DNA of 64,000 nt from Bacteroidaceae bacterium (GTDB lineage: Bacteria > Bacteroidota > Bacteroidia > Bacteroidales > Bacteroidaceae). A program made the position numbers and the translations under genes. The stretch spans positions 1 to 64,000 of the forward strand of contig JAFUYM010000045.1 of assembly GCA_017470525.1 (NCBI GenBank), written 5' to 3'. Of this stretch, positions 21,778-58,654 are shown in pieces (the first letter of the stretch is position 1; every line of letters starts with the position of its first letter). The notes under the pieces are model-generated. The model ran no database searches. It worked only from the letters and a program-made list of their open reading frames with translations, and was not told the DNA's origin.

Positions 21778-21798
21778 TCTTTTTCTGCATTAAATGAG

Positions 21799-24924: not shown

Positions 24925-24970
24925 ATCTACCGCTTTCTAATATCCTTTTATCATATATGAACTGATTGTA

Positions 24971-26044: not shown

Positions 26045-26074
26045 TTTTCCATTTATCTTTTATTTTTATCGCTG

Positions 26075-26083
26075 GCAAAGTTA
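26075..26083 (-). promoter_or_regulatory. Efflux operon promoter -7 element
   Basis: TAACTTTGC on the minus strand lies 31 bases before the adaptor start, in the 173-base gap shared with the divergent regulator. Confidence 0.75.
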
Positions 26084-26217
26084 CGGCTTTATTTTGAAAC
26101 ATACATCATATAAAAAACGCTACTTTTGTCCCAATTGTACGTTTTACATACGAAAAACATCTGATTTTATTGAATATTTGGTGAAAAAGTCGTTATTTTG
26201 TAGCAAATTTAATCATT

Positions 26218-27159: not shown

Positions 27160-27193
27160 CAACATAGTAATAACCAATTATATATATATTTAT

Positions 27194-27667: not shown

Positions 27668-27719
27668 GTCCACACAAACAACACATTCACTCTAACCATA
27701 CTCATTCACCATACCTATT

Positions 27720-29582: not shown

Positions 29583-29623
29583 TCAACCGACCTCCACATA
29601 TTTATATATAAGCACCCAACCGA

Positions 29624-32698: not shown

Positions 32699-32700
32699 AC

Positions 32701-33621: not shown

Positions 33622-33675
33622 TTCAACATCAACTCTAATCTTAACTCAAAAAACTTAAAAACCTAAAAACTTAAA

Positions 33676-34938
33676 ATGAAACAAATCATCTATCTTCTCC
33701 TCCTGTGGACCACCACCCTGACATCGTGGGCACAAGGAGTTCCAGCACTCGAACAATTGAAGGCTGACCCAAGAAAAGCCTATGGCACCGACTACCCCTA
33801 TCCCATGAAGCCAGCCGCAATGACCAAGGCACCGAAAGGCTACAAACCTTTCTACATCAGCCACTATGGTCGCCACGGATCACGCTACTACTGGAACGAT
33901 TTGCTCTACAGAAACTTAGACTCACTTCTCACCAAGGCACATGCCATGAACCTCCTCACCCCCGAAGGCGAAGCGTTCCGCATCAAGTTCATGGCTGCCA
34001 AGCAAGAACTGGCAACAAGTGTCAGCGAACTAAGCGACTTGGGCTGGGAACAGCATCAATACATCGCACGTACCATGTATGAGAACTTTGAAGAGGTATT
34101 CAAACAAGGAGGGGATGTGTTTGCTGTCTCTTCACTCACAGGGCGTTGTGTGCTCAGCATGGCATCCTTCTGCCAAGAACTGACACAATGCAACCCGAAG
34201 ATTGAAATCCGTGAACAGTCCTCGCGCAAGACCCTTGACGGGGTGAAGCCCGACGACAGGCAAAACCCCTACTATCGCAAGTTCCCCAAATCGAGACCAC
34301 GATTTGAACAGAACCGACAGCAATTTCAGAACAACGACGACCTGCGCCAGAAAATCATCCCGCGTGTATTTGTCAGCACAGAAGGATTGCCCGGAAACCC
34401 TTATCTCATAGCCAACGACCTCATCAACCTCTACACCTCACTGCCCAGCATCGGACACGAAGGCATGATGGGCAACATCATCACCGACGAGGAGATTGCG
34501 GCACGGTGGGAATGGGAAAACCTCGGCACCTACACTTGGGTGTTTGAACCACGCTATGATATGATTCCCATTCTTCGCGACTTCATCCAGAAGGCAGACG
34601 ACGTTTTGAACGGCTCCACCCAACGCCTTGCCGACCTTCGATTCGGACACGACACCTGCCTGGGACCACTCACCGTGCTCATGGGCATCAACGGAGCAGA
34701 CATCGACCCCGAAGACCCCTATGAGGTGAAGAACTGCTACCAGAACTGGCAGACCTGCAAGGCGTCCAACCTCCAGTTGATTTTCTATCGCAGCAAAAAG
34801 CAAGGTCAGGACATCTTGCTGAAATGCCTGCTGAATGGCAGCGAAGCATCCCTCCCCCTGCCAGGTGATCTCTATCCTTACTACAGGTGGGAAGATTTCA
34901 AGAAGTTCTATACAGACAGGTGCAACAGCATCGAATAA
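33676..34938 (+). CDS. Histidine-type acid phosphatase (MINPP-like)
   Basis: A 420-residue exported protein with a signal peptide (MKQIIYLLLLWTTTLTSWAQ). The clade-2 histidine phosphatase signature RHGSR near residues 57-61 holds the nucleophile, and the proton-donor region reads FGHDTCLGPL near residues 316-325. Family members in Bacteroidetes act on inositol polyphosphates such as phytate. A periplasmic or surface location fits. It ends at the terminator at 34948 and could share a transcript with rnz, 54 bases upstream. Confidence 0.87.
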   Translation: MKQIIYLLLLWTTTLTSWAQGVPALEQLKADPRKAYGTDYPYPMKPAAMTKAPKGYKPFYISHYGRHGSRYYWNDLLYRNLDSLLTKAHAMNLLTPEGEAFRIKFMAAKQELATSVSELSDLGWEQHQYIARTMYENFEEVFKQGGDVFAVSSLTGRCVLSMASFCQELTQCNPKIEIREQSSRKTLDGVKPDDRQNPYYRKFPKSRPRFEQNRQQFQNNDDLRQKIIPRVFVSTEGLPGNPYLIANDLINLYTSLPSIGHEGMMGNIITDEEIAARWEWENLGTYTWVFEPRYDMIPILRDFIQKADDVLNGSTQRLADLRFGHDTCLGPLTVLMGINGADIDPEDPYEVKNCYQNWQTCKASNLQLIFYRSKKQGQDILLKCLLNGSEASLPLPGDLYPYYRWEDFKKFYTDRCNSIE

Positions 34939-34947
34939 CCCACAAAA

Positions 34948-34976
34948 TAAAAGCCTCCCGACTCAGGAGGCTTTTT
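34948..34976 (+). terminator. Intrinsic terminator after the MINPP-like gene
   Basis: AAGCCTCC (34951-34958) pairs with GGAGGCTT (34966-34973) around 7 bases and is followed by TTT; flanking A and T runs allow use from the minus-strand gene as well. Confidence 0.85.
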
Positions 34977-34995
34977 CTATTCTGATAAGACACTA

Positions 34996-35688
34996 TTAAA
35001 GTACGCTCTGATGAGGTGCGGCTGTAGCAGACTTCTCATCCCCTTTGTTCTGAGATTTATTCCCCGGACGCACACCTGATTGTGTACCAGGTCTCATGTT
35101 AGGTCTCACTTGAGCCCTCATGCCCTGTCTCATACCTGGGCGATTCCCAAATCCTGCCCCCGGACGCGCACCAAACCTTCCATTCTGAAATCCATTTCCC
35201 ATGCGCGGGTTTCTGCCAGCAGCACCCATGCGCTGCATATTCATCTTTCCGATGCGCTGCATCTGGGAATACTGACGTTCGCTAAGCACCTTCTGGAAAC
35301 GCTTATAATACTTTTCCTCCACATCAATCGTGGCTCGGATGCGGGCAAAACGATTGGCGTTCATCTGCTCCAAGTCCTTGTCAGTCCACTGGCGAGGTCC
35401 CTTCTTTGCAGCATCCTTATCCTTCGAGTCCTTGTCCTTCTGAGCAGGAGCCATAGAATACTTTTCCGCAATTTGCTTCAGTTCCTTGCGGTACTCCACA
35501 TAGAGAGGTACAAACTCCGCCGACTTCGCATCATCGAGCATCAACTGATTAGCGATGTTTGTAGCCATCTGCGAATAACGTCGGTCACCATTCGTTTGAG
35601 ACTTGTCGTTTTTCTGATTTTTCTGTGCCATCACCGCACTTGCCGACATCATCAAAAATGTTGCTGCCAAAAATAAGATTCTTTTCAT
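34996..35688 (-). CDS. Secreted basic Met/Arg/Gly-rich protein, unknown family
   Basis: The start is placed at the ATG at 35688, which opens a clear signal peptide (MKRILFLAATFLMMSASAVMA). The product has 230 residues. The middle is helical and charged (residues 30-140). The segment ERQYSQMQRIGKMNMQRMG loosely recalls LTxxQ repeats of Spy/CpxP-like periplasmic proteins. The last 80 residues are low-complexity, rich in Arg, Gly, Met, Pro and Asn with repeated RPGxxxG. Binding of metal or nucleic acid by the tail is possible but speculative. It is convergent with the MINPP-like gene across a shared terminator. Confidence 0.75.
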   Translation of the reverse strand: MKRILFLAATFLMMSASAVMAQKNQKNDKSQTNGDRRYSQMATNIANQLMLDDAKSAEFVPLYVEYRKELKQIAEKYSMAPAQKDKDSKDKDAAKKGPRQWTDKDLEQMNANRFARIRATIDVEEKYYKRFQKVLSERQYSQMQRIGKMNMQRMGAAGRNPRMGNGFQNGRFGARPGAGFGNRPGMRQGMRAQVRPNMRPGTQSGVRPGNKSQNKGDEKSATAAPHQSVL

Positions 35689-35916
35689 TGTCGTGTAATG
35701 TGTTAATGAGGTTAATAATAATTTGTGCAATCTATCTGTTAGAACAGACTAAGTTACAAAGGTTTATATCACCTCACCTACTTTTAACGTGATTTAACGA
35801 GAAGAAGCAACCTCATCCACCTTCACCCGCATCCCCATCAATCCTTCATTTTTTTGCACCATTGTGAATTTTCCTCATAAACGTTTTGAACCTACAAAAT
35901 AAGTTCTGTATTCGCA

Positions 35917-35961
35917 CGTGGAAACAAGACGGATTTACAATTCGCGAATCGCAAATCCGAA
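35917..35961 (+). repeat. Promoter-palindrome element, copy 1
   Basis: A roughly 45-bp element contains the imperfect palindrome at 35931-35958 (GGATTTACAATT, spacer, AATCGCAAATCC). It matches 36979-37023 at nearly all positions. Its upstream -7-like sequence (TATTCGCA) is degraded compared with copy 2. Confidence 0.7.
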
Positions 35962-36020
35962 TGATATAAATTTGAAGAGCAATGGAATGAGACAACTATA
36001 CATTGTGAGTCTATTAGTAT

Positions 36021-36425
36021 TCAACGTTGTGTCCAATTCTCAATTTGAATGTTAGGAAGCCTACCAAGGTGTTTCACGTTGTCTGAAACCATCACCATTT
36101 GATTCACAATAGATGTTGCACCAATCAATATGTCAAAATCGTCAATCCTTGTTCCTGGCTTTTCCAACGTTACTTTTAGATCACCATAAAGTTGTAATGC
36201 AGGGAAGATCGGAAGAATTTCAAACTTCTCCACTATGAAATCTACATCCTTTAGTCGTTCCGTTTTTCGTTCACTTTTTGACGCTCCGTAATAAAGTTAT
36301 GCAATGGTAATTTCAGAGACAAAACAATTTTGAGGACCGGCTTTGATAACTGCTTCCCTTATTCCATTTTTGTTTTTCAATAAGGAAATACAAATATTGG
36401 TGTCAAGTAAATATTTGTGTGCCAT
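36021..36425 (-). pseudogene. PIN-domain (VapC-type) toxin with a nonsense codon
   Basis: Reading from the ATG at 36425 gives MAHKYLLDTNICISLLKNK, the start of a PIN-domain ribonuclease with its first catalytic Asp in LLDTN. After SEITIA the frame meets TAA at 36297-36299, then continues without a shift as LYYGASKSERK and runs to RIDDFDILIGATSIV, with the later acidic residues, and a normal end. In intact relatives this position is the conserved Glu of AEL(Y), so one GAA-to-TAA change explains it. Full length would be 134 residues. The remaining 42-residue peptide cannot be an active nuclease. The antitoxin-like gene lies 2 bases upstream and is intact. Confidence 0.88.
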
Positions 36426-36427
36426 TT

Positions 36428-36694
36428 TTAAAATTCCTCTAAGATTCGAGAGATTCCAGAAGTTCTCGCATTTCTAATGTTCTCCATCTCTTCTTCGGGT
36501 GAGATTCCGTCATCCCAAGCATTGGAAAGTCCATCAAAGAAGTTTTTTGTATTCTTTGTGGTAGAGGTGGAACGGCCAATAGAATTGACAAGCAATACGG
36601 CAAGTTCCCTTTTTGTCTTATCATTTAGCCTTTTAAGCATTCCCCAATAGAGAGCGCTTGCGGGTGATGTAGTTATTCTGTCCTGTACATTCAT
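36428..36694 (-). CDS. Putative antitoxin partner of the PIN toxin
   Basis: An 88-residue protein starting MNVQDRITTSPASALYW at the ATG at 36694 and ending 2 bases before the toxin start, the usual antitoxin-first order. It is helical and charged. The C-terminal half (ISPEEEMENIRNARTSGISRILEEF) has the acidic, amphipathic look of a toxin-binding tail, and the N-terminal half would be the DNA-binding part. I do not recognise the antitoxin family by sequence; the assignment rests mainly on position. It is apparently intact although its toxin is broken. Confidence 0.65.
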   Translation of the reverse strand: MNVQDRITTSPASALYWGMLKRLNDKTKRELAVLLVNSIGRSTSTTKNTKNFFDGLSNAWDDGISPEEEMENIRNARTSGISRILEEF

Positions 36695-36968
36695 GGTTTG
36701 ATGTCCTTTTGATTTCGTCGCGAATTTACAGCAATAAGATTGAATAGACAAAAATTTCTGATAGAAACTTCTAAATAATAAAAAATAAGTTGTATTTATA
36801 CATCCTTTCTTTCAAATAGTGATAGTCCTTCGAGTCATCACATCAGTAGGACACATACATATTAAAGACGTTTTCTAATTATGAATACTGGAAAATCAGG
36901 ATAAAGCACATTTTGTTTAATTGCTGGGCCATGAGGATCAGAAGTGTTTGCTTCTTAAAAAGTTGTTG

Positions 36969-37023
36969 TATCTTTGTACGTGAAAACAAGACGGATTTGC
37001 AATTCGCAAATTGCAAATCCAAA
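36969..37023 (+). repeat. Promoter-palindrome element, copy 2
   Basis: A -7-type TATCTTTG at 36969-36976 is followed at fixed distance by a palindrome at 36993-37020 (GGATTTGCAATT, 4-base centre, AATTGCAAATCC). The layout equals copy 1 at 35917. No gene follows in the expected place, so this may be the relic of a lost gene's regulatory region. Confidence 0.7.
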
Positions 37024-37221
37024 CAGTGGCTTTCATGCTTTTGCATTTTATCAACAAAAACGCATGATTCCCTTCTCTTCTCAATATCTTTTTGCACTTT
37101 TGGAAGTGCATGGACAGAACTTGGTATTAATTGGAATAATACCATTCATCATCCCTTCCACCGCCTTCACCACCTTCCCTTCACATCCTCCAATATTTTT
37201 AGCCTGACTATACAAAATCAT

Positions 37222-37322
37222 TTGGCTTGATTACAACTTTCAAATTGGCTTGATTACACTTCAGTATATTCAAGCCAAATTGAAAGTTGTAATCAAGCCA
37301 AATTAAAAATTATATTCAAGCC
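37222..37322. repeat. 23-bp-period inverted array (locus 3) with 34-bp arms
   Basis: TTGGCTTGATTAC occurs twice 23 bases apart (GGC at 37224 and 37247). Its complement then occurs three times at 23-base steps (CAAGCC at 37271, 37294 and 37317). As a result 37220-37253 and 37270-37303 are near-perfect inverted repeats (one mismatch) around 16 bases and can form a long hairpin. Confidence 0.85.
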
Positions 37323-37661
37323 TATTCCTTTTGAGTCAACAGGCTAAATGCGACAGAGGCTATGGCGGGCAGTATGCGGAAACCATGAGCGATAGTGCGT
37401 GGAGGTTATGAGTGTCGGTTGACAATGCTCACGAGTGGTTTGTATGGACTATAAGCATCACCTTAGTCGAAATGACTTACCAACATCACCGAACCCTCCC
37501 TTTTGATGTTTTTCAACACATTTATCAAAAAACTTCACTTTTTGTTTGGAAGATAACAAAAAAAGCCTTTAATTTGCAACCGTATTCTTCGGAATACAAC
37601 TTTTTATTTGCTCAAATCGCCTTTCAAACTTCCACATCCGAAAACGATAAAAGAGCAATTA

Positions 37662-37770
37662 ACACTTACTAAGGAGTATGTGCATTTCTGTGCGCAGACT
37701 TTTCCGTAGTAAGTGTGGGTTGTGGAAGACCCGAAAGGCGTATGGCGAGAGTCTGCGCTTTTCTTTTAAA
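37662..37770 (+). ncRNA. Candidate pseudoknotted leader RNA of the accessory operon
   Basis: Two perfect helices interlock. ACACTTACTA (37662-37671) pairs with 37707-37716 (10 bp), and GCGCAGACT (37692-37700), inside the loop of the first helix, pairs with 37750-37758 (9 bp). Between them GGGTT and GACCC can make a small hairpin. The second helix runs into TTTTCTTTT, so the element could act as a regulated terminator. It ends about 60 bases before the first gene. The same segment can be read as a 33-codon frame from 37679 (MCISVRRLFRSKC...), preceded by AAGGAG at very short spacing. I do not recognise an RNA family; function is inferred only from structure and place. Confidence 0.55.
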
Positions 37771-37826
37771 GGTTAGTGCATGGCTGAAATGAAAAACAAT
37801 ACTAACTTAAATAATACTACATAATT

Positions 37827-38885
37827 ATGGAACAAAGGAACTATCTGAGAATCTTATGGATGGCTGCATTCGTGGCGTTTGCTGCCGTTAGTTGTTGGGC
37901 TACGGCAGAGTCATTGCATTTACTGCTTTCCTCATGGCCATTGGTCATGTGTTGGATTGTGACAGTAGGATTTTTCATCATTGCTTCGTTGGGTACGAAA
38001 ATGATAGTTGACAGTCTAAATCAGAATATCTATATGGAAAAAAGAGGTATACGACTGATTGGTGGTGTGATTATTGTGCTGATTTTCTGGATACTGTGCA
38101 GTATGCCGACAAACACACACACATTCTTTTATCGTACCCTAATTGATGGTATGGTGAATACTGACATCTCCACGACAAGTGGTTACTTGGGACAAATCAA
38201 AAACAACACCAACAATAAGAATCAGGCGATGGTGAAGGTAAATGAACTGAAGAATAATGTAGATGTACTGTTGGGAGAATTGGAGGCTGAGATAAAAAAT
38301 GAGGCGAATCCTGGATTTGGTCCCAAATCGAAAGACATTCTGAGAAGAATGGCGGCTTTGTTAGGTGTTGATAAAATTGAGCCTTTGACTTTCAAAGGAA
38401 CATCGAAACAAGATCGTGATAAACTATGTGATGCTTATCGAACAAAGATTTACATTCTTGCTGATTCGAAAGCGACAAATATAATGACACAGATTCTATC
38501 CCCAAATCCAGACAATCTAAAAGAAGTAAAGCGTGATGGTGAGAACTTGGCATTGGTGAAGAAGTACATCAACGAGGGAACAATTGACCTTAACGATGCA
38601 GAGGATATAAAAGATGTGTGTGACAAACTCAATACAGGTTACAATACTATTAAGAAGAACAAGGAGTTTGTCAACTTCTCTTCGAAAGCGGATGAGGATG
38701 TATATACAGCAGACAATCCTGTTACTAAAGTAAAACGTATGATTAGCGTTTTTGATGTTTGGGATGATTTCTTAAAAGGTGAATATGCTGGACACGGTTT
38801 TGCTTTTTGGATTATCATTTCCGTGCTTGTTGATATAGCAGCATTTATGTTTTTCGATTTGGCGTTTAAGAAAGAAGATTATTAA
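37827..38885 (+). CDS. Four-TM membrane protein with helical middle domain, first gene of the accessory operon
   Basis: A 352-residue protein with TM segments at about 8-28, 36-57, 74-93 and 323-346 and a soluble middle region of about 230 residues that is helical and charged (NNKNQAMVKVNELKNNVDVL...). The end KKEDY is cytoplasmic-looking. No enzymatic motif was seen and I do not recognise the family. It starts about 60 bases after the candidate leader RNA and is 18 bases before the GTPase gene. The likely role is the membrane platform or channel-like partner of the GTPase. Codon use is A+T-rich compared with the housekeeping genes around it. Confidence 0.8.
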   Translation: MEQRNYLRILWMAAFVAFAAVSCWATAESLHLLLSSWPLVMCWIVTVGFFIIASLGTKMIVDSLNQNIYMEKRGIRLIGGVIIVLIFWILCSMPTNTHTFFYRTLIDGMVNTDISTTSGYLGQIKNNTNNKNQAMVKVNELKNNVDVLLGELEAEIKNEANPGFGPKSKDILRRMAALLGVDKIEPLTFKGTSKQDRDKLCDAYRTKIYILADSKATNIMTQILSPNPDNLKEVKRDGENLALVKKYINEGTIDLNDAEDIKDVCDKLNTGYNTIKKNKEFVNFSSKADEDVYTADNPVTKVKRMISVFDVWDDFLKGEYAGHGFAFWIIISVLVDIAAFMFFDLAFKKEDY

Positions 38886-38903
38886 TTAAATACTATTAAA
38901 AAC

Positions 38904-39845
38904 ATGGCAGATTTGAATTTTGTCACTTCTGAAGATGTGCAGTCACCTGTAATCCAGGATTCAGAAACTAATAATACACAGTTGATGGAAAATGCCTCTA
39001 CCACTCAAGTAAATGAAAATGGGTTGAGTATGGAGGAACTGAACGACGCAAACAAGATAAAAGTAACTATTGCTGACTATAAAACTCCATTGGTTATCCT
39101 CTTTGGCGCACCAGCATGTGGAAAAACAATGACATTGGTCCGTTTGACAAGATATTTGCAGAGTAAAGGTTACACTGTTCACCCCGAGACCTCGTTCCGT
39201 CCTGCATATGACAAGAACTATAAGGAAATGTGTGACAACTTTGATACGATGATAAATAGTGAGGATGCGGCACAATCAACCAACAAGATAAGTTTTATGC
39301 TAGTGCAAGTTATGCAGAAAGGGAGACCTCTATGTCAAATATTAGAAGGACCAGGTGAGTATTATTTCAACCCGGGCGATCCCAAAGCAATGTTTCCAAA
39401 GTATGTGAATGCTATTATCAATAGCAACAATCGCAAAATTTGGGCAATAATGGTGGAACCAGACAGTACAAACAGACGTATGGATGTGGAGGCACGCAAG
39501 AATTATGTGAATAAAATCCACAAATTGAAGACAAAGATTAGTCCACGAGACAAGGTGATGTTTGTGTTCAACAAAATTGATGAAACAAATTATGTTTTGG
39601 GACCTGGGCGTATCAATTATAAGGAGACGATGGAACGCACAAAGTATTTGTATCCTAACATTTTTGTTCCCTTTGTCAACGAGAATCCCATCACAAAGTG
39701 GTTTGCACCCTATAATTTCGATTTTATCGCATTCCAAACAGGCGATTTCTCAGAGGCATCTGATGGTACACTTACCTTTGAGGAGGGACATGAGGTTTAT
39801 CCAAAGAAGTTATGGGAAATTATTCAGAAACGCATAAGAGGTTAA
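38904..39845 (+). CDS. P-loop GTPase-like protein
   Basis: A 313-residue soluble protein. After a polar 55-residue N-terminus comes a G domain: G1/Walker A GAPACGKT near residues 70-77, a G3-like LEGPGEYYF (Glu in place of the usual Asp of DxxG) near residues 151-159, and G4 NKID near residues 230-233. The C-terminus ends KLWEIIQKRIRG. The layout fits a TRAFAC-type GTPase distantly like the GTPases of bacterial conflict systems described computationally, but I cannot place it in a named family. It is 4 bases upstream of the next gene, so it is probably translated with it. It is the only nucleotide-dependent component visible in the operon. Confidence 0.82.
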   Translation: MADLNFVTSEDVQSPVIQDSETNNTQLMENASTTQVNENGLSMEELNDANKIKVTIADYKTPLVILFGAPACGKTMTLVRLTRYLQSKGYTVHPETSFRPAYDKNYKEMCDNFDTMINSEDAAQSTNKISFMLVQVMQKGRPLCQILEGPGEYYFNPGDPKAMFPKYVNAIINSNNRKIWAIMVEPDSTNRRMDVEARKNYVNKIHKLKTKISPRDKVMFVFNKIDETNYVLGPGRINYKETMERTKYLYPNIFVPFVNENPITKWFAPYNFDFIAFQTGDFSEASDGTLTFEEGHEVYPKKLWEIIQKRIRG

Positions 39846-39849
39846 GACT

Positions 39850-41064
39850 ATGAAAGTTGACTTATTTATCCATGGGGTCCCTAATGGTGAAGGCTTTTGG
39901 GGCAAAGAAGATGACCGAAATTACTTTGGGACATTCTATGATCACAGCACTGATGAAGTGAAATTTGTCATCCAGAATCGTGTGTCCAAAGGTAAGCCAT
40001 ATTGCTATTACAACTACTTGGTGTACAAAACAGTTGGCTCTCCCACTCCTAATGTGGTAGCGAATGATGGTCGAGATGGGTCATATTTTGGTATATCATT
40101 ACGTATAGATGCATACTGCAAGGATGTGATGAATATGTACCGTATTCTTGACACTATCTATAATATATATGTATGGGGTGACCTCTTAAAAATGGAGAGG
40201 TCGAAATTAAAGTATTCATTTTCTGATTTTTCGAATATAGAGGCAAAACTAAAAAATATAGAAAATGCAACTTTCAAATTGGTTCAGAATGGTTTTTATG
40301 CAGATAGTTTCATGCCACTTGATGGCTTCTCCAATAGTGGTGGAAACGTTCCCGTTTTCAATCTATATGAAATGACTGCAGCTGATGCCCTGCAAGCTGT
40401 AAAACAATACGGGAAAATAATAGTTTCTCCTTATTATCCAACCATGCGAGAACGGCAAATCCAACAACAATGTGACAGTCAAATTGCCGTGTTTAGACAG
40501 CAATGGGATAGAGAAAAAACGGAATTAAATTCTTCGCTAACTCCATTAAAGGAACAAGTTTCAGCCCTTCGTCAAGATATTTCTACTCGTGACAATACAA
40601 TCAGTCAGTTACAGAGAGATTTGCAGAATGCAAAGCAGAACAAAAATATTAGTCAACTTGTTGCTACTTTGAAAGATCCTATAACAGAATTATCTCGGAC
40701 ATTGCGAACAATACTTCCCGACACAAAAATCTCTCATACAACATCCTCTCAACCTTCAGTGCTTAAAAAGGTGTCGTTGTTTGCTCCCATAGTGAACTTT
40801 TGGCTCTTGGTGCTGCTTATTTGTCTTTTGGGGCTCATTCTCAACAAAGAGACAGTACATCAATCTGAAGTACCACCTCATGTTGTCGAGGTTATAACAG
40901 ATACTGCTTCTCAAAATGAAACAGGAGCGCCTGATGAAGACTTGCTGACCACTGACAGCAACACGGCAAATGACACCTCTGATGAAGTTGATGACAAGAA
41001 TATAGAAGAGCACCCATCGCCTTTTAGCCAAAAAGATGCAGAAACTCCAAAGTCCAAAATCTAA
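39850..41064 (+). CDS. Membrane-anchored protein: sensor-like N-terminal domain, coiled coil, TM, acidic tail
   Basis: A 404-residue protein. Residues 1-190 form a globular domain (LFIHGVPNGEGFWG, YYNYLVYK, GSYFGISLRIDAYCKD). Residues about 198-265 form a coiled coil (REKTELNSSL...LQRDLQNAKQ). A single TM lies at about 312-335 (FWLLVLLICLLGLIL), and then comes a 70-residue Asp/Glu/Ser/Thr-rich tail. The N-terminal domain shares its order of strand, Gly-rich turn and Asp with the domain of the proteins at 41597 and 43233, so I infer a distant common fold. Topology would place that domain and the coiled coil in the cytoplasm next to the GTPase. Family not recognised. Confidence 0.78.
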   Translation: MKVDLFIHGVPNGEGFWGKEDDRNYFGTFYDHSTDEVKFVIQNRVSKGKPYCYYNYLVYKTVGSPTPNVVANDGRDGSYFGISLRIDAYCKDVMNMYRILDTIYNIYVWGDLLKMERSKLKYSFSDFSNIEAKLKNIENATFKLVQNGFYADSFMPLDGFSNSGGNVPVFNLYEMTAADALQAVKQYGKIIVSPYYPTMRERQIQQQCDSQIAVFRQQWDREKTELNSSLTPLKEQVSALRQDISTRDNTISQLQRDLQNAKQNKNISQLVATLKDPITELSRTLRTILPDTKISHTTSSQPSVLKKVSLFAPIVNFWLLVLLICLLGLILNKETVHQSEVPPHVVEVITDTASQNETGAPDEDLLTTDSNTANDTSDEVDDKNIEEHPSPFSQKDAETPKSKI

Positions 41065-41068
41065 AATA

Positions 41069-41593
41069 ATGAAACACGCTTATTTTATCATACTTCTTCT
41101 CACCATATTACTGATGTCTTGTGGTAAGGAGAAGAGAAAGCCCGTTTACTATGATTCTGACGTAACAGAAGACGAAACTTTATATGCCCAAAGCGGAGAT
41201 GAAGTGGTCGTTCCCTATCGTAGTGAAGATGGGGTAAAGTATGTTAGGGTCAAAGTGAACGGAGTGGAATTTGATATGATATTTGACACGGGATGTTCGA
41301 CCACTCTAATATCTCTTGCTGAGACAAATTATTTGTACCAAAAAGGAGAGCTTGGCAAGGAAGATATTCTTGGTGTATCCAACTCTCAAATAGCAGATGG
41401 GAGTATAGTAGAGAATATGGTGATAAATCTAAAAGAGGTTGTAATAGATGATAAAATCTCGTGTCCAAATGTGAAAGCTACCGTTTCGGGTAATGTACAA
41501 GCCCCCCTGCTATTAGGCAATGAAGTACTGGATAGAGTGGCAACAATTACGATTGATAATACCAATCAAACACTTAAATTTAATCTGAAATAA
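41069..41593 (+). CDS. Retropepsin-like aspartic protease lipoprotein
   Basis: A 174-residue protein started at the ATG at 41069, which opens a lipoprotein signal (MKHAYFIILLLTILLMSC). The mature part has the single-domain clan AA aspartyl protease pattern: FDTGCSTTLIS near residues 72-82 with the catalytic DTG, and LLLGNEVLDR near residue 150 matching the hydrophobic-hydrophobic-Gly motif. As with retropepsins, two subunits would be needed for an active site. It is anchored in the cell envelope and cleaves an unknown substrate; extracytoplasmic tails of the neighbours are candidates. It is 4 bases after the previous gene and 3 before the next. Confidence 0.85.
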   Translation: MKHAYFIILLLTILLMSCGKEKRKPVYYDSDVTEDETLYAQSGDEVVVPYRSEDGVKYVRVKVNGVEFDMIFDTGCSTTLISLAETNYLYQKGELGKEDILGVSNSQIADGSIVENMVINLKEVVIDDKISCPNVKATVSGNVQAPLLLGNEVLDRVATITIDNTNQTLKFNLK

Positions 41594-41596
41594 TTC

Positions 41597-43204
41597 ATGA
41601 ACAATTCAGCTTATGTTTTTGGCAATCTTGGGGGAGGTTACACCCAATATCCGGAAGATTACGCCCATGAGATTTACGAAGAATTCCAACTCAAAGCCGA
41701 GGCTCCTTCACAGGTGATCATCCATAGGGACAAAGGTATTATGTACTATGGTTATGTACGTAAGTTGGACAGAGATGGGCAATATATAGGTCTTTGTGTG
41801 TTGCTGAATGGTGTGATGTTGTCGAGAATGGCGAACTTATTTTCTGTTTTTGAGAAAGTCGTGTCCGAAATGGTATCGCAAGGTGAACTCATCAAGATGG
41901 ATGACAATGGTGACATCATAGGAGTGGCGGATCGACTGGATGAGAAGCAACAGGAAGTGGAGCGTATAGTCACATATCTTCGTGAAGAAATCGTACATTG
42001 GGAAAGTACGGCGACAAGACTACCTCCGGTAAATTATAGCATCAGTAATGATTCCAGTCGTACATTCTCTCTATCTGATAAGGATGAGGATATTGTGGAA
42101 GCATCTGTTAAATACGGCTATATATGTGTACAGAAACATGAAGAATATGATACTCCGTTGTTGGTCGGTCTCAGAAATGTGTTGAAAAGAAAGGCTGGAC
42201 TTAATACTAGCGCAAAAGCTATAGGCTCGCAACAAGGGGAAAACAATGCGCTGAAGGTGATTATATGGATTACGGTAATTGTGGCTTTGGCTGTCGTTGC
42301 CTTTTTTGTGCCTAAGAACTGTATGAATAGTTCCTCCGTAACTCCAGTTGTTGATTCTGTGGCTATTGATAGTGTGGCAACTGACGCATCGCTGGATAAT
42401 AAGGATCTGATAATAAAAGGCGATATTTCAAATATCGGATTTAGCATGAAACTATATGTGTCTAATGGTGTGGTAAATGGAACAGAGCATTATGATAGCC
42501 AACCGTCATCTAAGTTTGTTCGGATTTCTGGAAATGTAGATGATGATGGGTCAATGCATTTGTATGAATATGATACAAAGAAAGGAGAAGAAACAGGTCA
42601 TTTTTCAGGCGTATTGTCTGATGGATTGTATTCAGGCACATGGTCTTCGGCATCAGGAAAAAGTCTATCTTTTACAGCCCACATAGTAAATCAAGACAAA
42701 AATTTTGATAATGATACAAACCCTTTTTTGTACATTTTGCTTAATACGTTGTTAGATATTAATTTGGAAACATTAGACACTGTAGATGCGATTCTGACCA
42801 GCATGGGATTTGATTATGTATGTGAATCAGTAAATGGTGGTTATTGGAAAAAAGATTGTGATGTTATAAAATCTCCTGCTTATTCAGAACAGTATAATGT
42901 GGAAACGGATAGGATGGAAACTGCCCAAATAGGGTATTCATGCACTCCGAAAAATGCAACAGAAGAATCTGTCCTTGTTGAAACGGATGCATATCGTGGA
43001 CCTGTTTATGTCAGTGTAACAATATGGGGGAAAGAGAATTTTGCTAATTGGCAAAAACAATTGAAAGCAAATGGTTATGTGGAACGATTTGAAAAGAAAA
43101 ATAATAAGTGGACATATACAAAGAAAGGCAAGTATGAGATTACTCTTTTAGAAAAAATAGAATATGGTAAGTCTGCCTATTCATTATTGATTTGGGGCGA
43201 ATAA
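41597..43204 (+). CDS. Membrane-anchored sensor-like protein with extracytoplasmic beta domain
   Basis: A 535-residue protein. Residues 1-190 hold the domain shared with the protein at 43233 (AYVFGNLGGGYTQYPEDYA, IIHRDKGIMYYGYVRKLD, YIGLCVLLNGV). One TM is at about 219-241 (VIIWITVIVALAVVAFFV). The exported part begins with a lipocalin-like beta sheet (GHFSGVLSDGLYSGTWSS) and ends with a roughly 150-residue domain containing two Trp-rich strands (KWTYTKKGKYE, SLLIWGE). No signal peptide is present, so the N-terminal domain stays in the cytoplasm. Inference: a receptor linking an envelope signal to the GTPase. I do not know a named family for it. Confidence 0.78.
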   Translation: MNNSAYVFGNLGGGYTQYPEDYAHEIYEEFQLKAEAPSQVIIHRDKGIMYYGYVRKLDRDGQYIGLCVLLNGVMLSRMANLFSVFEKVVSEMVSQGELIKMDDNGDIIGVADRLDEKQQEVERIVTYLREEIVHWESTATRLPPVNYSISNDSSRTFSLSDKDEDIVEASVKYGYICVQKHEEYDTPLLVGLRNVLKRKAGLNTSAKAIGSQQGENNALKVIIWITVIVALAVVAFFVPKNCMNSSSVTPVVDSVAIDSVATDASLDNKDLIIKGDISNIGFSMKLYVSNGVVNGTEHYDSQPSSKFVRISGNVDDDGSMHLYEYDTKKGEETGHFSGVLSDGLYSGTWSSASGKSLSFTAHIVNQDKNFDNDTNPFLYILLNTLLDINLETLDTVDAILTSMGFDYVCESVNGGYWKKDCDVIKSPAYSEQYNVETDRMETAQIGYSCTPKNATEESVLVETDAYRGPVYVSVTIWGKENFANWQKQLKANGYVERFEKKNNKWTYTKKGKYEITLLEKIEYGKSAYSLLIWGE

Positions 43205-43232
43205 TGGTTAATTGAGTATATCATAATGATTA

Positions 43233-44336
43233 ATGAATACACGTAGCATGAATAGTTCCGTATACATCTTTGGAAATTTGGGGGTTGGTTACACCCAATA
43301 TCCAGAAGGTTATGCTCAAGAATTTTTTTATAAGTTCCATGAACAATCTTCCGCAAGGTCACAGATAGTGATACATAGAGATAAGAATCTGATGTATTAT
43401 GGCTATGTGCGTAAATTGGATGTGCCAGAAAGGTATATTGGATTCTGTGTACTATTGAATGGAGTGAGGTTGTCGCACATTAACGAATTGTTTCCAGTAT
43501 ATGAAGATGCTGTTGCAGATTTGGTGGCACATGGCGATATCCTCTGCTTTAATGAGTATAATCAACTTTCTTCTTTTGCAGGTAAACTGAAAGATAAGCA
43601 ACATGAGATTGAGCGTATAAGTGTACTTCTCCGTGAAAAAATTGAAGAGTTAGGAAAAGATGCGGTTGTTTTACCTCCTATGAGATATGGAATAGAAAGA
43701 GATTCATACAAAACCTTCTCCTATGCAGAGGATGAGGAAAGCCTTATCATTGATGCTTCAGTACAATATGGATACACTTGTATTCGGAAGAGTGGAAACT
43801 GTGACGCTCCATTGCTGACAGAATTAAAAAATGAATTAAGGAAACGCTCTATGCCAACACCAGAACTAACCAAGACTGGTGATGGAGTAGGTGAGACTTC
43901 TACTTCTAATGAGGAGTGGGAGTATGAGGCGGCATCTAATAGTACGCCTGTTCCAAGTATTCAGAATACCTTACCAAGCACTACGCCATCTATATCACCG
44001 GTGTTGGGGCATCAACATATGTTCTCTAACGCATTTTCATTTTCTGGAAGAATACGGCGGTTGGAATATGGGCTTTCGTATATCATCTATGAAGTGTGGA
44101 ATGTTTTATCCGCATTGATTACGGGCAATTTGAGTACGAAAGAAAATGGCGCTATTGTGTTGTATTATCTGTTCATGATTCCCGGGATATGGTTTATAAT
44201 AGCTCAAAGTACGAAGCGTTGTCACGATAGGGGAAACTCAGGATGGTATCAGTTGATTCCTTTTTATGGCTTATGGATGCTATTTGGAGGTGGAAATGAG
44301 GGCACCAATGAATATGGATTAGACCCTAAGCGATGA
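43233..44336 (+). CDS. Sensor-like N-terminal domain fused to DUF805 membrane domain
   Basis: A 367-residue protein. Residues 1-185 are a clear paralog of the N-terminal domain at 41597 (VYIFGNLGVGYTQYPEGYA, VIHRDKNLMYYGYVRKLD). A Ser/Thr/Pro-rich linker spans about 210-255. Residues 262-367 are a DUF805 membrane domain: FSFSGRIRRLEYG, then KRCHDRGNSGWYQLIPFYG and GTNEYGLDPKR, all family hallmarks. The start used gives MNTRSMNSSVYIF; the second Met (MNSSVYIF) matches the paralog's start better and may be the real one. It lies 28 bases after the previous gene. The duplication with different tails suggests several inputs into one pathway. Confidence 0.85.
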   Translation: MNTRSMNSSVYIFGNLGVGYTQYPEGYAQEFFYKFHEQSSARSQIVIHRDKNLMYYGYVRKLDVPERYIGFCVLLNGVRLSHINELFPVYEDAVADLVAHGDILCFNEYNQLSSFAGKLKDKQHEIERISVLLREKIEELGKDAVVLPPMRYGIERDSYKTFSYAEDEESLIIDASVQYGYTCIRKSGNCDAPLLTELKNELRKRSMPTPELTKTGDGVGETSTSNEEWEYEAASNSTPVPSIQNTLPSTTPSISPVLGHQHMFSNAFSFSGRIRRLEYGLSYIIYEVWNVLSALITGNLSTKENGAIVLYYLFMIPGIWFIIAQSTKRCHDRGNSGWYQLIPFYGLWMLFGGGNEGTNEYGLDPKR

Positions 44337-44339
44337 AAC

Positions 44340-44684
44340 ATGTGGCAAAATAATCATAATCGATTACTAATGCAAGTTTACATTAAATATAATTCTGCGT
44401 TGGATTTGCTACATCTAATCTTATCCGTCATCCTTCTCCTTTGTCTCCTACCGATGCCTTACGGCTATTATACGTTTGTCCGTTTCGTGTCGATGGGGGC
44501 GTTTGGAGTGATGACATATCAGTATATTCAGAAGAAACAGATGGCATGGGCAGTTACGTTTGGCATCCTTGCCCTCCTGTTCCAACCCTTCATCAAGATA
44601 GCCCTTGGACGAACTATTTGGAATGTGGCGGATGTGATTGCGGCGGTGTTGCTGATTGCTGTGTGGATAAAAGAGAAAAAATAA
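44340..44684 (+). CDS. DUF6804-like small membrane protein
   Basis: A 114-residue protein with about four short TM segments. Family-like features are LLPMPYGYYTFVRFVS near residues 37-52, ALLFQPFIKIALGRTIWNVADVI near 79-101, and the short KEKK end. A Met at residue 11 (MQVYIKYNSALDLL) could be the true start. It follows the DUF805 gene by 3 bases. Function unknown. Part of this gene was duplicated downstream (see 44774). The family name is from memory and less certain than the membrane nature. Confidence 0.72.
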   Translation: MWQNNHNRLLMQVYIKYNSALDLLHLILSVILLLCLLPMPYGYYTFVRFVSMGAFGVMTYQYIQKKQMAWAVTFGILALLFQPFIKIALGRTIWNVADVIAAVLLIAVWIKEKK

Positions 44685-44773
44685 GTTTTGTTGTTGCAAT
44701 AAGGGGGTGTGTCATCATCTTTTTTGCAGGGATTTGGTACGAAATCCGAAAATTATGTGTAAGTTTGCAAACA

Positions 44774-44839
44774 AAATCGATTTTGTGGCAATGGTGGCGT
44801 TTGGAGTAATGACATACCAATACATCCAAAACAAATATA
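44774..44839 (+). pseudogene. Fragment duplicated from the DUF6804-like gene
   Basis: The frame reads KIDFVAMVAFGVMTYQYIQNK, against RFVSMGAFGVMTYQYIQKK in the intact gene about 300 bases upstream. The DNA is also very similar (GGCGTTTGGAGTRATGACATA). Neither the start nor the rest of the gene is present, and the fragment runs out of frame into the next gene, whose ATG at 44840 lies at its edge. Confidence 0.75.
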
Positions 44840-45625
44840 ATGGCAAAACTATCTCAATGTGCAAAATGTTTTTGTGACCGTAGGGTTTGCGGGCATTATA
44901 AACAGGAAGATGACATGGAATGTCCTCATTTTTGTTCATATAAAGGTGGAGATGAGGAAGATGGTGAAGACTCGCAAAAAATTGGAATTGTTTATGCTTC
45001 TTTTTGCATTCTGTATGTTTATATAGGATTTGCCATTGGACTTGCTCGTTATTTTAAGGATATGAGAATCTATTACGTATTTGCAATACCAGTTATCATA
45101 TTGATTGTCTTGAGTGTTGTGAGATATATAAAGAAACGAAAAGAACGAAAACAAATGGGAACAATTGAAACAAAAACGATTAAATCTGGTAGAGATACAA
45201 GAACATTATTGCAAGTGACCCTTCGCGAACTGAACTTACCATATGAATTTGATGAAGAACAAAATTTCATCGTTACATATCAAGGTGAGACTTTTCGAAT
45301 CCTTGCAAATAATGATAGTGCATACATTCACATACAGGATTTATGGTGGTATGATGCTTCTTTGACCGATATTGACAATCTCTCATTAGTACATCGTGCG
45401 GTCAATGATTGCAATATACGTGATACAAATAGAATAGTTTACACATATAACAGGGAAGAACAGCGGATTGGAATCCATACATTGTGTGATATTCTTTGGA
45501 TTTCTCAGATTCCTAATGCAGAGCAATATCTGCAAGCAACCATGAACAGTATGCTCCGAAGTCATCACATGTTTTTCCGTTTGATGGAGGACTTGAGGCG
45601 TGAAGAACACGAGAGACGGAGGTGA
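44840..45625 (+). CDS. Cys-rich two-TM protein with YbjN/chaperone-like C-terminal domain
   Basis: A 261-residue protein. Residues 1-33 hold six cysteines (CAKCFCDRRVC, then MECPHFC), which could bind one or two zinc ions. TM segments at about 48-70 and 77-97 follow. Residues about 115-255 form a soluble alpha/beta domain (LLQVTLRELNLPYEFDEEQN, FRILANNDSAYIHIQDLWW) whose pattern recalls YbjN or type III chaperone-like folds; this is only an impression. Both soluble parts would face the cytoplasm. It is the last gene of the operon and is followed by the 23-bp array and a terminator. Its ATG lies right after a gene fragment, so it may have been placed here by a rearrangement. Confidence 0.75.
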   Translation: MAKLSQCAKCFCDRRVCGHYKQEDDMECPHFCSYKGGDEEDGEDSQKIGIVYASFCILYVYIGFAIGLARYFKDMRIYYVFAIPVIILIVLSVVRYIKKRKERKQMGTIETKTIKSGRDTRTLLQVTLRELNLPYEFDEEQNFIVTYQGETFRILANNDSAYIHIQDLWWYDASLTDIDNLSLVHRAVNDCNIRDTNRIVYTYNREEQRIGIHTLCDILWISQIPNAEQYLQATMNSMLRSHHMFFRLMEDLRREEHERRR

Positions 45626-45675
45626 TGAAGATTGATGAGATCACCGTCTTTAATCGCAAACTATTCGCTGTAAAT

Positions 45676-45744
45676 CGGACTGCTCCAGTGCGGCACGTCG
45701 GACTGCTCCACTCCGATTCATCGGACTGCTCCAGTCCGAATGAG
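45676..45744. repeat. 23-bp-period hairpin repeats (locus 4)
   Basis: Three units start CGGACTGCTCC at 45676, 45699 and 45722, exactly 23 apart. The third contains the perfect hairpin CGGACTG, 3 bases, CAGTCCG, and the others are close variants. Confidence 0.9.
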
Positions 45745-45752
45745 AGGGGCTG

Positions 45753-45779
45753 AAAGAACCGTATTGTCGGTTCTTTTTT
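45753..45779 (+). terminator. Terminator of the accessory operon
   Basis: AAAGAACCG (45753-45761) pairs with CGGTTCTTT (45768-45776) and a T-run follows, directly after the 23-bp repeat array. Confidence 0.85.
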
Positions 45780-45840
45780 GTTGGCAAAATGTCTGTTGGT
45801 TTTGCTGAAAAAAGTGCGAGCCTCTGGTTTTTATGGGAAC

Positions 45841-47175
45841 TTAGGTGGTCTGATGCTTGACGTGAGAACGGAATTGCAGATAGTAGCAGAGACCTGCGGT
45901 GGTGAGTCCGAAGGGGAAGGACCACCAGATGCCGACGGCTCCCATGCCGAGAGGAAAGGCGAAGATGTAGGCAAGAGGAATGCTGACGAGGCAATAGGCA
46001 ATGAAGGCGTAGAGCATCATGGCACGGACGTGAGCAATGGCTCGGAGAGCATTGGCATAGGTGATTTGGAGGCAGTCGCCTATCTGGTAGCAAACAAAGG
46101 CTGGAAGGAAGGAGAGGAAGAGTCGGGTGACTTCGCTGCTGGTGGTGAAGATGGCGGCTATCTGGGGACTTGCCACACAAATGAGGGTGATGATGATGAT
46201 GCCTGATGCAAAGGACATCCACAGGGCGGTGAGGGCGGTTTTGTGCACTTCGTCCCATTCGCCCTGCCCTCGGAAATAGGCGATACGGATGGCTGCTGCG
46301 GCACCGATGCCATAATAGACCATGAAGGCGAGGGTGCTCACGGTGCCCATGATTTGGTGCGCTGCCAATGCTGCGGCACCTATCCACCCCATGAAGAGGG
46401 CGACCACATTGAATGAACTGGCTTCGAGGCACAATTGCATGGAGATGGGAAGACCGAGTTTGAGCAGGGAGAACATGCCTTCTCGACCATAACTGTTTTG
46501 AGGACGGGAGATTTCTGCTTTCTGAAAATTGGGAGAACGGAGCAAGGAACCGCGACGAAGGGCAATATAGATTGCCAGGGGCATGAGAGCACGGGAGATA
46601 AGGGTGGCAAGACCTGCACCGAGGAGTCCCATGTCGAGGGTGAAGATGAGCAGATAGTTGAGCAGAAGGTTGAGGACATTGCTGCCTATCATCGTCCACA
46701 TGGGGGTCTTGGTGTCGCCAAGGGCATCAGAGAACTGCTTCATGGAATTGAACAGCGCCATGAAGGGTAACGAGGCAAGCAACGCAAGAAAGTAAGGGCG
46801 CATGAGGGGCAGCAACTCGACGGGCTGACCAAGACGGTCGATGTTGAGATAGAGGATGAAGAGCAACAGCACCACGACAACGCTTGCAAGGAGGTTGACG
46901 GCGTTGCTCTCACGCAGAGTGCGCAACACACGGGCGTATTTGCCTTGACTGAAATAGTTGCCGACAATGGGGGTGGTGGCATAGGATATGCCAAGCAGAA
47001 AGTAGATGCAGAAGTTGAACACGTTGTTGACGAATCCGGCTGCGGACAATTCGGGGGTGCCGTACTGTCCGACCATGATGGTGTCTGCCCATCCCTGCAT
47101 GACACTGCCGACCTGGGCAATGACGATGGGGAGAGCGAGTGTGAAGATGGCTCTGGCTCGTGCTTGACGTTGCAT
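45841..47175 (-). CDS. MATE-family multidrug/Na+ antiporter
   Basis: A 444-residue inner-membrane transporter with about twelve TM segments in two homologous halves. The N-terminal half has the MATE pattern IFTLALPIVIAQVGSVMQGWADTIMVGQYG, ending in the AAGFVNNVFNF region; the second half begins near LLKLGLPISMQLCLE. It exports organic cations or drugs using sodium or proton gradients; the substrate cannot be read from sequence. It follows the DUF6057-like gene by 21 bases on the minus strand. The long open frame read out of phase across its 3' half is a shadow. Confidence 0.93.
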   Translation of the reverse strand: MQRQARARAIFTLALPIVIAQVGSVMQGWADTIMVGQYGTPELSAAGFVNNVFNFCIYFLLGISYATTPIVGNYFSQGKYARVLRTLRESNAVNLLASVVVVLLLFILYLNIDRLGQPVELLPLMRPYFLALLASLPFMALFNSMKQFSDALGDTKTPMWTMIGSNVLNLLLNYLLIFTLDMGLLGAGLATLISRALMPLAIYIALRRGSLLRSPNFQKAEISRPQNSYGREGMFSLLKLGLPISMQLCLEASSFNVVALFMGWIGAAALAAHQIMGTVSTLAFMVYYGIGAAAAIRIAYFRGQGEWDEVHKTALTALWMSFASGIIIITLICVASPQIAAIFTTSSEVTRLFLSFLPAFVCYQIGDCLQITYANALRAIAHVRAMMLYAFIAYCLVSIPLAYIFAFPLGMGAVGIWWSFPFGLTTAGLCYYLQFRSHVKHQTT

Positions 47176-47196
47176 GACTCCTTTATTTCCTCTGTT

Positions 47197-48429
47197 TTAT
47201 TTCCTCTGTCCTATTTCTCCTTTGGCTTGCTGGCTGTACTCATAATACCACCAGTAGGTCTTGCCAAACTCGCGATGGGTTTTGTTGATGCGTTCGGTCA
47301 CATCCTTCACCTCGGCTTGCAGTTCGTTGTAGTCGCGGAACTGAGCAATGAACGACTGGTCTGAAAATTTTGCCAAGGTGTCGGCACCAACCAGAATGAT
47401 GCCATCCATAGCAGCCCTGCGCTGTCCTGTCAGCAGTAGTGCCTCACGATAGGCTTTGGGCAGGTGGTCGTAAGCATGAGGTATGCTGTCGGAAAGGTCG
47501 TAATAAAGAGGTAGGTCCCGAGAAAATTCTTTGAGTTTGCGGTCTAAAAGAAGGCTACAGAGATAGTAGTCTGCTGTGTGCTGATTCCAGATGGAGTCAC
47601 CTAACATCAACTGATAATATCGGTCGGTGGAATGGATACTGGCACCACAGAATGCACCCAAATGAAGGCAGATGCTCTGAGGACTGAAACGGTAGTAGTC
47701 CAAGGTGTCGGTCACATCGAGCAATCCGAGCGAACCGTAATATTGTGGATATTCAAAAAGACGTTCTGCCAACAAGCCTTGTTTGGAAAGGGCATACATG
47801 CGCAGTTGAGTGAGTCGGGGAGACGTGCGTAAAGAACGCTCTCCCACGTTGGATGCCGCTTCATAGTCCCCTTCGAGTATCAAGCGTTCTGTCTTCAGTT
47901 CAAAATGATAGACATCGGTCGATTGCGGAATGGCACCCACACAAAGGATGAGCAGAAAGAGAATGATGAAGTTGGGATAAATCTGCGACTTGATGTCGAT
48001 GGCATAGTTCTCAAAGTCTGCATCTACAACCTTTGCGATGATGACCAAAGCAATATAGACCACCAACACGATGGGGGCAACCCACACCCATGCACCAAAA
48101 GAGAAATGCAACATTGCCTCTTGGTTGACATCGGTGAGGATGGCAAGCAGGAGCAAAGAGGGTACATAGGAAAGTGCATGCCACCGGGACGGCAAACGAG
48201 AGAGCATGCTTACAATCCACTGTATGATTTGCAGCACAACCGTGATGATGACTGCTCCGATGAAGATGTTATAGGTGGTGACACCTTTTGAATAGACGAA
48301 CTGCGCTTCTGCCAAGATTTCGCCTTGCAGGAAGAACAGATAGCAGAAGGAAAAAAGCATAAACAGAATCCCGCAGGAATAACGGATTAGTCCTGCGGTC
48401 TTCTGTCTGAATGGATGATTGTAATTCAC
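47197..48429 (-). CDS. DUF6057-like membrane protein
   Basis: A 410-residue protein. About five TM segments fill residues 1-180 (LIRYSCGILFMLFSFCYLFFL, IFIGAVIITVVLQIIQWIV, NFIILFLLILCVGAI). A soluble, probably periplasmic C-terminal half follows with TPR-like helices (LILEGDYEAASNVGERSL). That mix fits the Bacteroidetes family DUF6057 as I recall it. Function unknown. It lies between glgB and the MATE gene on the same strand with short gaps (47 and 21 bases). Confidence 0.65.
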   Translation of the reverse strand: MNYNHPFRQKTAGLIRYSCGILFMLFSFCYLFFLQGEILAEAQFVYSKGVTTYNIFIGAVIITVVLQIIQWIVSMLSRLPSRWHALSYVPSLLLLAILTDVNQEAMLHFSFGAWVWVAPIVLVVYIALVIIAKVVDADFENYAIDIKSQIYPNFIILFLLILCVGAIPQSTDVYHFELKTERLILEGDYEAASNVGERSLRTSPRLTQLRMYALSKQGLLAERLFEYPQYYGSLGLLDVTDTLDYYRFSPQSICLHLGAFCGASIHSTDRYYQLMLGDSIWNQHTADYYLCSLLLDRKLKEFSRDLPLYYDLSDSIPHAYDHLPKAYREALLLTGQRRAAMDGIILVGADTLAKFSDQSFIAQFRDYNELQAEVKDVTERINKTHREFGKTYWWYYEYSQQAKGEIGQRK

Positions 48430-48476
48430 AATGATTTCTTGTTTTTACTTCGATAGTTTTTCAACGCTCCCCTGCT

Positions 48477-58485: not shown

Positions 58486-58654
58486 CTAATAAATCCGTAA
58501 ACAACTAACAACCTGCACACTTTTTATGTTCAAAAACATGAAAAATGGTACTTCCCCTACTAAATTGGTACATCCACGTTGCAGTTAGCCTCCCAGAACA
58601 CGAACCATCATCATCAGCCACCACACATCATCCTCTCCCCGTCGCGCCCACAGA

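Follow-up and report, generated by a model that had tools for sequence, protein, structure and literature searches.

A 64,000-nucleotide stretch of contig JAFUYM010000045.1 from a Bacteroidaceae bacterium, referred to below as the window, carries a cluster of eight genes, here named A to H. Five of them, in the order A-B-C-(D)-E, constitute a real, conserved and patchily spread five-gene system of Bacteroidales. They encode a membrane protein (A), a P-loop GTPase (B), two proteins that share an N-terminal domain (C and E) and a putative lipoprotein with a retropepsin-like protease domain (D). We interpret this accessory system as a trans-envelope complex that is switched by the GTPase and whose outer modules can be exchanged, and put the probability of this interpretation at about 0.5. 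No description of the operon was found in the literature searched, which did not include preprints and most subscription journals; a related paper is that of Kaur et al. (2020; PMC7159879).

A conserved five-gene core and its distribution

Homologues were sought in a collection of species genomes with two exact peptide patterns from the GTPase, a scan that sets a lower bound, and the best 80 of 87 relatives were retained. Gene content was determined by iterated hidden Markov model (HMM) searches of the window and these 80 loci (81 loci), and was counted in the 58 loci with sufficient sequence on either side of the operon. Genes A, B and C were present in all 58, E in 56 and D in 43. At L074, one of the two loci without E, the gene for the N-terminal domain was recognised only in later iterations. 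Gene order was constant throughout the 81 loci, all core genes lying on one strand as A-B-C-(D)-E, and the median gaps between successive core genes were 24, 5, 2 and 3 bases. The original prediction had set its operon against the possibility of homologues scattered without a shared neighbourhood; at the 58 loci the neighbourhood is conserved.

That prediction had also described an operon of eight genes. The operon itself is real, and its core comprises the five genes A to E, with G and H outside. When 91 fetched stretches (L013-L103) were searched with these two by tblastn, there was no match at E 1e-3, and both were rejected as core members; L013-L023 for the most part duplicate later loci, and some of the stretches do not extend past E. 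Gene F is an extra E-type paralogue, and the L024 contig (also read as L014) has several of these in a row, one of them broken. Extra copies of core genes occur in a few loci, with a second B in five and extra C or E genes in others. The second B-family GTPases are diverged and lie near the operon in 5 of 81 loci (L063:10454-11263, L067:1075-1881, L075:16546-17322, L080:4738-5649 and L091:10881-11702); at least two of the five have other G3 sequences (IDMPGD, FDCCGE). At L020:849-1382, in one genome, a macro-domain gene (PF01661) is found between A and B.

B was detected in 10 of 150 relatives, the genome of the window included. The only good match in a 395-genome sample of the phylum was in this same genome, and two others matched weakly, over 56 and 71 residues. 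There was no match in 72,556 plasmid records or 50,697 phage records, and one match in IMG/VR. Judged by record titles, the genera with the operon include Segatella, Bacteroides and Parabacteroides. Short operon contigs titled Opitutales, Bacilli, Clostridia, Clostridiales, Roseburia and Lachnospiraceae (L045, L061, L062, L072, L090 and L101) are probably mis-binned or mislabelled Bacteroidales DNA.

When host labels were placed on a tree of 39 labelled GTPases, seven host groups required 16 changes, compared with a minimum of 6 and a mean of 20.9 for shuffled labels; none of 200 shuffles was as low as 16. The three Bacteroides rows were forced apart on this tree. Since host labels are more clustered than shuffled ones, vertical inheritance also plays a part, and the scatter and clustering together indicate a degree of vertical descent to which transfer or repeated losses were added. 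In genome G003, whose B is 85% identical to that of the window, the operon is on contig C61 and orthologues of the genes flanking it in the window are on C40 and C9. An empty site was not shown, the flanking-gene orthologues being on different contigs in G002, G003, G017 and G026. The assembly of the window carries the region twice, as contig C52 (G000:C52, L013) is 100% identical over 20 kb to window positions 20903-40902; this contig is redundant and was rejected as a second copy of the operon in its own genome.

Proteins of the core and their relatives

In an alignment of 82 B proteins, G68, G73, K74 and the G4 aspartate D226 were invariant, and E148, P150, G151, E152 and K224 were conserved at 90% or more. 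Profile comparison of B with DO-GTPase2 gave an hhalign score of 89.1% (E 2.2e-6) over 157 columns, extending from G1 through G3 to G4. The scores with other GTPases were 27.6% for FtsY (53 columns around the P-loop), 14.9% for DO-GTPase1 (over the P-loop) and 3.8% for Era (P-loop surroundings only). The score of approximately 89% is not special on its own, because FtsY also scores 86.3% with DO-GTPase2, in an alignment of 59 columns around the P-loop; the special feature of B is that only its DO-GTPase2 alignment reaches G3 and G4. Since B and Era score 3.8% and DO-GTPase2 and Era 97.7%, the placing of B among TRAFAC GTPases rests on DO-GTPase2. The DO-GTPase profiles were made from 10 of 13 loci (L118, L121 and L123 were left out), and the FtsY and Era profiles each drew on 14 of 15 genomes; the Era set includes at least one wrong open reading frame (ORF), L162. 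At E<=0.01, Pfam DO-GTPase2 was matched by 1 of the 82 B proteins (E 0.0053) and DO-GTPase1 by none, and a PDB profile search with B returned P-loop-region or chance matches only, signal recognition particle GTPases first. On these grounds B is best described as DO-GTPase2-like rather than as a proven member of that family.

Kaur et al. (2020; PMC7159879) describe DO-GTPases as having Glu in Walker B. In B the G3 glutamate region (E148, P150, G151, E152) aligned with the APGE motif of DO-GTPase2, which gives B the conserved Walker B glutamate described for DO-GTPases. The operon and the DO-GTPase/GAP1 systems are alike in this Walker B Glu and the G1-G4 match, in combining a GTPase with a dedicated partner, variable modules and membrane association, and in the presence of a second GTPase, found in 5 of 81 operon loci. 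They differ in that GAP1-N1 was not detected and Pfam DO-GTPase2 was matched by so few B proteins; the operon instead has a DUF4407-like membrane protein, a retropepsin-like lipoprotein and a shared adaptor domain peculiar to it. Neither GASH nor FNIII was matched in Pfam at E<=1 by the eight window proteins, and the first 25 families listed in scans of E (67 proteins), C (79) and A (66) included neither. A complete DO-GTPase system of the GAP1-N1 type was seen in another genome of the phylum (L114:4497-10685), with a PNP_UDP_1 phosphorylase-superfamily domain at the GAP1 C-terminus.

The transmembrane segments (TMs) of A were placed by eye near residues 8-30, 36-60, 78-94 and 325-345, so that TM3 and TM4 are separated by some 230 residues of a helical region. 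Across 66 rows the invariant residues were S22, C23, T26, S29, W88, T95, N96, H98, G163, D336 and F340, and the polar ones sit in or beside the TMs so placed. Mean column identity was 42% for A, compared with 34% for B and for D, in different row sets. An hhalign comparison of A with 25 DUF4407 sequences (PF14362) gave 93.1% (E 3.2e-7) over 238 columns, compared with 0.4% and 0.1% for D and DO-GTPase2 as controls; the set came from 25 loci (L200 gave no ORF, and four matches below the cut-off were left out). By profile-profile comparison A is thus a distant DUF4407 relative. It differs from these proteins in that matches to single profiles were weak: DUF4407 was found in 9 of 66 A proteins at E<=0.1 (best 3.5e-4), none of them over the Pfam cut-off, and the HMM of A itself found no DUF4407 protein at E 0.01. 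The neighbourhoods differ also, as in the six DUF4407 neighbourhoods searched no match to B, C, D or E at E 0.01 adjoined the DUF4407 gene. A PDB profile search with A gave coiled-coil, helical or chance matches only. Charge counts of the window protein fit an arrangement in which both termini of A would be inside and the helical region outside.

The N-terminal domains of C and of E/F belong to a single family (hhalign 99.5%, E 3e-22), in agreement with the predicted small domain common to C, E and F. Among ten genomes bearing the system, 26 of 28 matches to the shared domain were on contigs with other core genes, and the remaining two (G033:C40 and G043:C121) were on additional contigs of genomes in which the contig with the operon is cut short. 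The shared domain had no convincing Pfam match among the best 25 families listed for 67 E and 79 C proteins, where coiled-coil models dominate, and no significant PDB sequence match, the searches with C and E giving coiled-coil, helical or chance matches only. Comparison with 18 Roadblock sequences gave hhalign scores of 0.9% or less (20 loci were fetched; L214 was not taken and L208 gave no ORF), none of them amounting to a match. The original idea of a longin/roadblock-type regulator found no support in these profiles or in the PDB. Loop patterns resembling those of GAP1-N1 were seen by eye, but the N-terminal domains of E, C and both combined scored 0.4, 3.8 and 1.2% with 10 GAP1-N1 sequences, and this kinship is not claimed. 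The GTPase MglA and the Roadblock protein MglB form a polarity module; the operon resembles it in manner of working only, each pairing a small GTPase with its own small partner to act on an envelope apparatus, and differs in that its shared domain has no Roadblock profile match.

Of 66 E proteins, 60 had more lysine and arginine residues ahead of the TM than behind it and 4 showed the opposite bias; among 77 C proteins the corresponding numbers were 52 and 8. From this charge bias, the tails of C and E are predicted to lie outside.

D had been described as a retropepsin-like lipoprotein. It exceeded the cut-off for PF13975 (36.4 bits; cut-off 28.2) and retains the DTG active site, which bears out the protease assignment; the lipobox was recognised by eye. 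The catalytic Asp was invariant in 56 of 56 proteins, and the T and G of DTG were conserved at 90% or more. These figures cover 56 of 59 D matches, L062 and two matches of L059 being left out, one of the latter a 680-aa TPR protein. The score for the narrower TIGR02281 was 28 bits, below its cut-off of 57.95. A search of PDB profiles with D matched the ApRick protease (5c9b, E 4.8e-5), which we take to be APRc of Rickettsia. D thus resembles bacterial retropepsin-like proteases in this profile match and in the DTG active site, and differs from them as a putative lipoprotein encoded in a GTPase operon.

E tails, neighbouring genes and the locus

The tails of E were compared for proteins longer than 230 aa in which the TM is followed by 60 aa or more (n=61), using the last 115 residues and single linkage. 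They fell into 21 linkage groups, the largest with 31 members and the next with 5 that are MORN-like by eye; four further groups had 2-3 members, and 15 tails stood alone. The group of 31 is itself diverse, and some small groups are coiled coil only. As 31 of the 61 tails belong to one linked group, the E tails are not a hypervariable repertoire. The first part of the E tail of the window was found elsewhere only in L014 and L024, which are the same contig, and the second part had no match in the 91 fetched stretches. Pfam families recognised in E proteins include DUF805, in three, and FGE-sulfatase, in one. When the MORN-like E of L028 was scanned alone there was no Pfam MORN match at E 0.01, and the MORN call is one made by eye.

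A BACON-type ORF adjoins E in all five loci with the MORN-like tail, compared with 2 of 54 other loci. The script counted four of the five, the ORF of L028 starting just outside the set limit, and on this 4/5 count Fisher's test gave p 1.6e-4, uncorrected for kinship. An exported protein family (LP_L043; L043:14512-15762, and L044, L058, L079, L080, L086 and L087) is encoded beside E or between C and E, and four of its seven loci are without D. In single loci the downstream gene chain includes Endonuclease_NS (L027, L043), SNase with M15 (L058), GH25 (L070, L089) and a caspase (L089). A membrane gene pair, MotA/MotB-like by eye, comes immediately after a short E that itself lacks a TM, at L046:13309-15616 (the same contig as L018); its second gene gave a weak MotB_plug match (E 6e-4), and the first matched only RhoGAP, weakly.

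All eight predicted ORFs of the window were found on the plus strand at the positions claimed (Table 1). D is taken to start at an inner ATG, 41069; the first ATG of the longest ORF, at 41036, overlaps C. The intergenic distances were 18 (A-B), 4 (B-C), 4 (C-D, from the inner ATG), 3 (D-E), 28 (E-F), 3 (F-G) and 155 bases (G-H), so that the predicted spacing of mostly 3-28 bases holds for every pair except G-H. In a Pfam scan of the window proteins, F exceeded the cut-off for PF05656 (DUF805; 54.1 bits, cut-off 25.7) and G that for PF20619 (DUF6804; 103.6 bits, cut-off 27), the latter as predicted; A, B, C, E and H had no family over cut-off.

Table 1. Positions, strand and predicted features of genes A to H in the window
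Gene	Position	Strand	Features
A	37827..38885	+	Membrane protein, four TMs by eye; distant DUF4407 relative
B	38904..39845	+	P-loop GTPase: G1 GxPxCGKT, G3 with Glu (LE[AG]PGE), G4 NKID
C	39850..41064	+	Shared N-terminal domain (~200 aa), coiled coil, one TM (~313-331), short tail
D	41069..41593	+	Retropepsin-like aspartic protease domain in a putative lipoprotein (lipobox by eye)
E	41597..43204	+	Shared N-terminal domain, TM (~221-239), tail of ~296 aa
F	43233..44336	+	Second E-type paralogue, tail a DUF805 membrane domain; likely start 43248
G	44340..44684	+	Small DUF6804 membrane protein, co-directional, outside the conserved core
H	44840..45625	+	Cys-rich N-terminus, two TMs, soluble C-terminal part; outside the conserved core

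The operon is A+T-rich as claimed, with a G+C content of 36.5-41.5% per kb over 38-46 kb compared with mostly 42-55% elsewhere; other low-G+C parts of the window are the first 4 kb, 26-27 kb, 36-38 kb and 53-54 kb. Repeat arrays had been said to bracket it. Repeats with a 23-base period do lie on both sides (37265-37322 and 45674-45739); the two arrays differ in sequence, and they are not specific to the operon, since 23-base arrays with differing units occur through the window, also at 3630-3701, 8750-8794 and 58653-58725. The supposed dead toxin pair (36021-36233 and 36428-36751) had no Pfam match at E 0.01 and is unconfirmed. Positions 35000-48500 had no Rfam match, and promoter and terminator scans gave no excess over shuffles.

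Interpretation of the system

In the proposed complex, B would be a cytoplasmic switch, and A would form the base in the inner membrane, its helical domain reaching into the periplasm. C and E would serve as adaptors, whose shared cytoplasmic domain would read the state of B and which would each reach through the membrane by one TM, usually with a coiled coil, to a tail outside. The tail of E would be an output module that can be exchanged, paired in some loci with an exported partner protein whose gene is adjacent. D would trim or release components, probably as an active aspartic protease in the periplasm, but is dispensable. We infer the contact of B with the shared domain, the change of the outer modules with nucleotide state, and the activity and substrates of D. 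Our leading guess for the trigger is an envelope-localised threat, either phage entry or contact antagonism. The system may work like DO-GTPase systems, though the partners tested for (GAP1-N1 and GASH) were not found.

This interpretation draws on the constant order and content of the core, the presence of nearly all shared-domain matches on operon contigs, the GTPase motifs of B and its relation to DO-GTPase2, the DUF4407 relation of A, the invariant catalytic Asp of D and the charge bias of C and E. It draws also on the 21 groups of E tails, the MORN-like tail with its BACON-type neighbour, the downstream genes, the scattered host groups and the separation of the operon from the flanking-gene orthologues in G003. 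Several observations count against it. The loci are not independent events, as some are close kin (L061 and L062, for example); about half of the E tails form one linked group; D is absent from 15 of 58 loci, several of them with the commonest E tail; the downstream genes are sporadic and may be unrelated to the system; and host labels are more clustered on the GTPase tree than when shuffled.

Two other roles seem to us distinctly less probable than the switched complex, and about equally so. One is anti-phage or conflict defence like that of DO-GTPase/GAP1 systems, in which the sensing of an invader would flip B, and tails, neighbouring nucleases or lytic enzymes would be released or activated. 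The resemblance of B to DO-GTPase2, the nucleases, caspase and muramidases downstream of some operons, and a patchy distribution on a scattered tree are in keeping with such a role. However, known defence families were not enriched upstream: the upstream flanks had 12 PADLOC families (E<=1e-20; 130 of 199 flank proteins), compared with 56 (130 of 163 control proteins) in stretches from six genomes of the genus, the count being of families, not proteins, and the figure of 56 being inflated by redundant Type I specificity models. This comparison with same-genus controls led us to reject a defence-island setting, though the system may still act in defence. Among the window proteins, moreover, A, D, E, F, G and H had no PADLOC match at E<=1, and B (best 8e-4) and C (best 6.8e-5) matched only weakly, to ATPase or coiled-coil models. 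The want of a B match in the plasmid and phage records and of a detectable GAP1-N1 domain likewise speaks against defence. The other role is that of an accessory machine for envelope maintenance or transport, remodelling the wall, lipoproteins or the surface with no part in conflict. Here the strong conservation of A, the wide spread of one E tail group, the neighbours that would act on wall or surface (GH25, M15, BACON) and the L046 gene pair with its weak MotB_plug match would be expected, but patchy distribution is unusual for maintenance machinery and the nuclease neighbours do not fit.

The mechanism first put forward for these genes, regulation of the GTPase by longin/roadblock sensor domains with processing of exported tails by the protease, we regard as improbable. 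The shared domain is indeed tied to a GTPase operon and the active site of the protease is kept, but neither the Roadblock profiles nor the PDB gave that domain a relative, and D is dispensed with even in loci with the commonest tail.

To our knowledge, there are few established ways for a cytoplasmic GTPase to control proteins that lie beyond the inner membrane. If the system is a GTPase-switched trans-envelope complex, this conserved and patchy five-gene module would provide a model in which inside-to-outside switching can be tested, and would add to GTPase-centred systems a kind other than the GAP1 types. We suggest more tentatively, and at somewhat less than even odds, that it represents a new class, in which a divergent DO-GTPase2-like switch would pass on its nucleotide state through an adaptor domain without known relatives and a DUF4407-like base to swappable outer effectors policed by a retropepsin-like lipoprotein. 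Were that so, the Bacteroidales would possess an effector platform that works from inside to outside and whose architecture is new.

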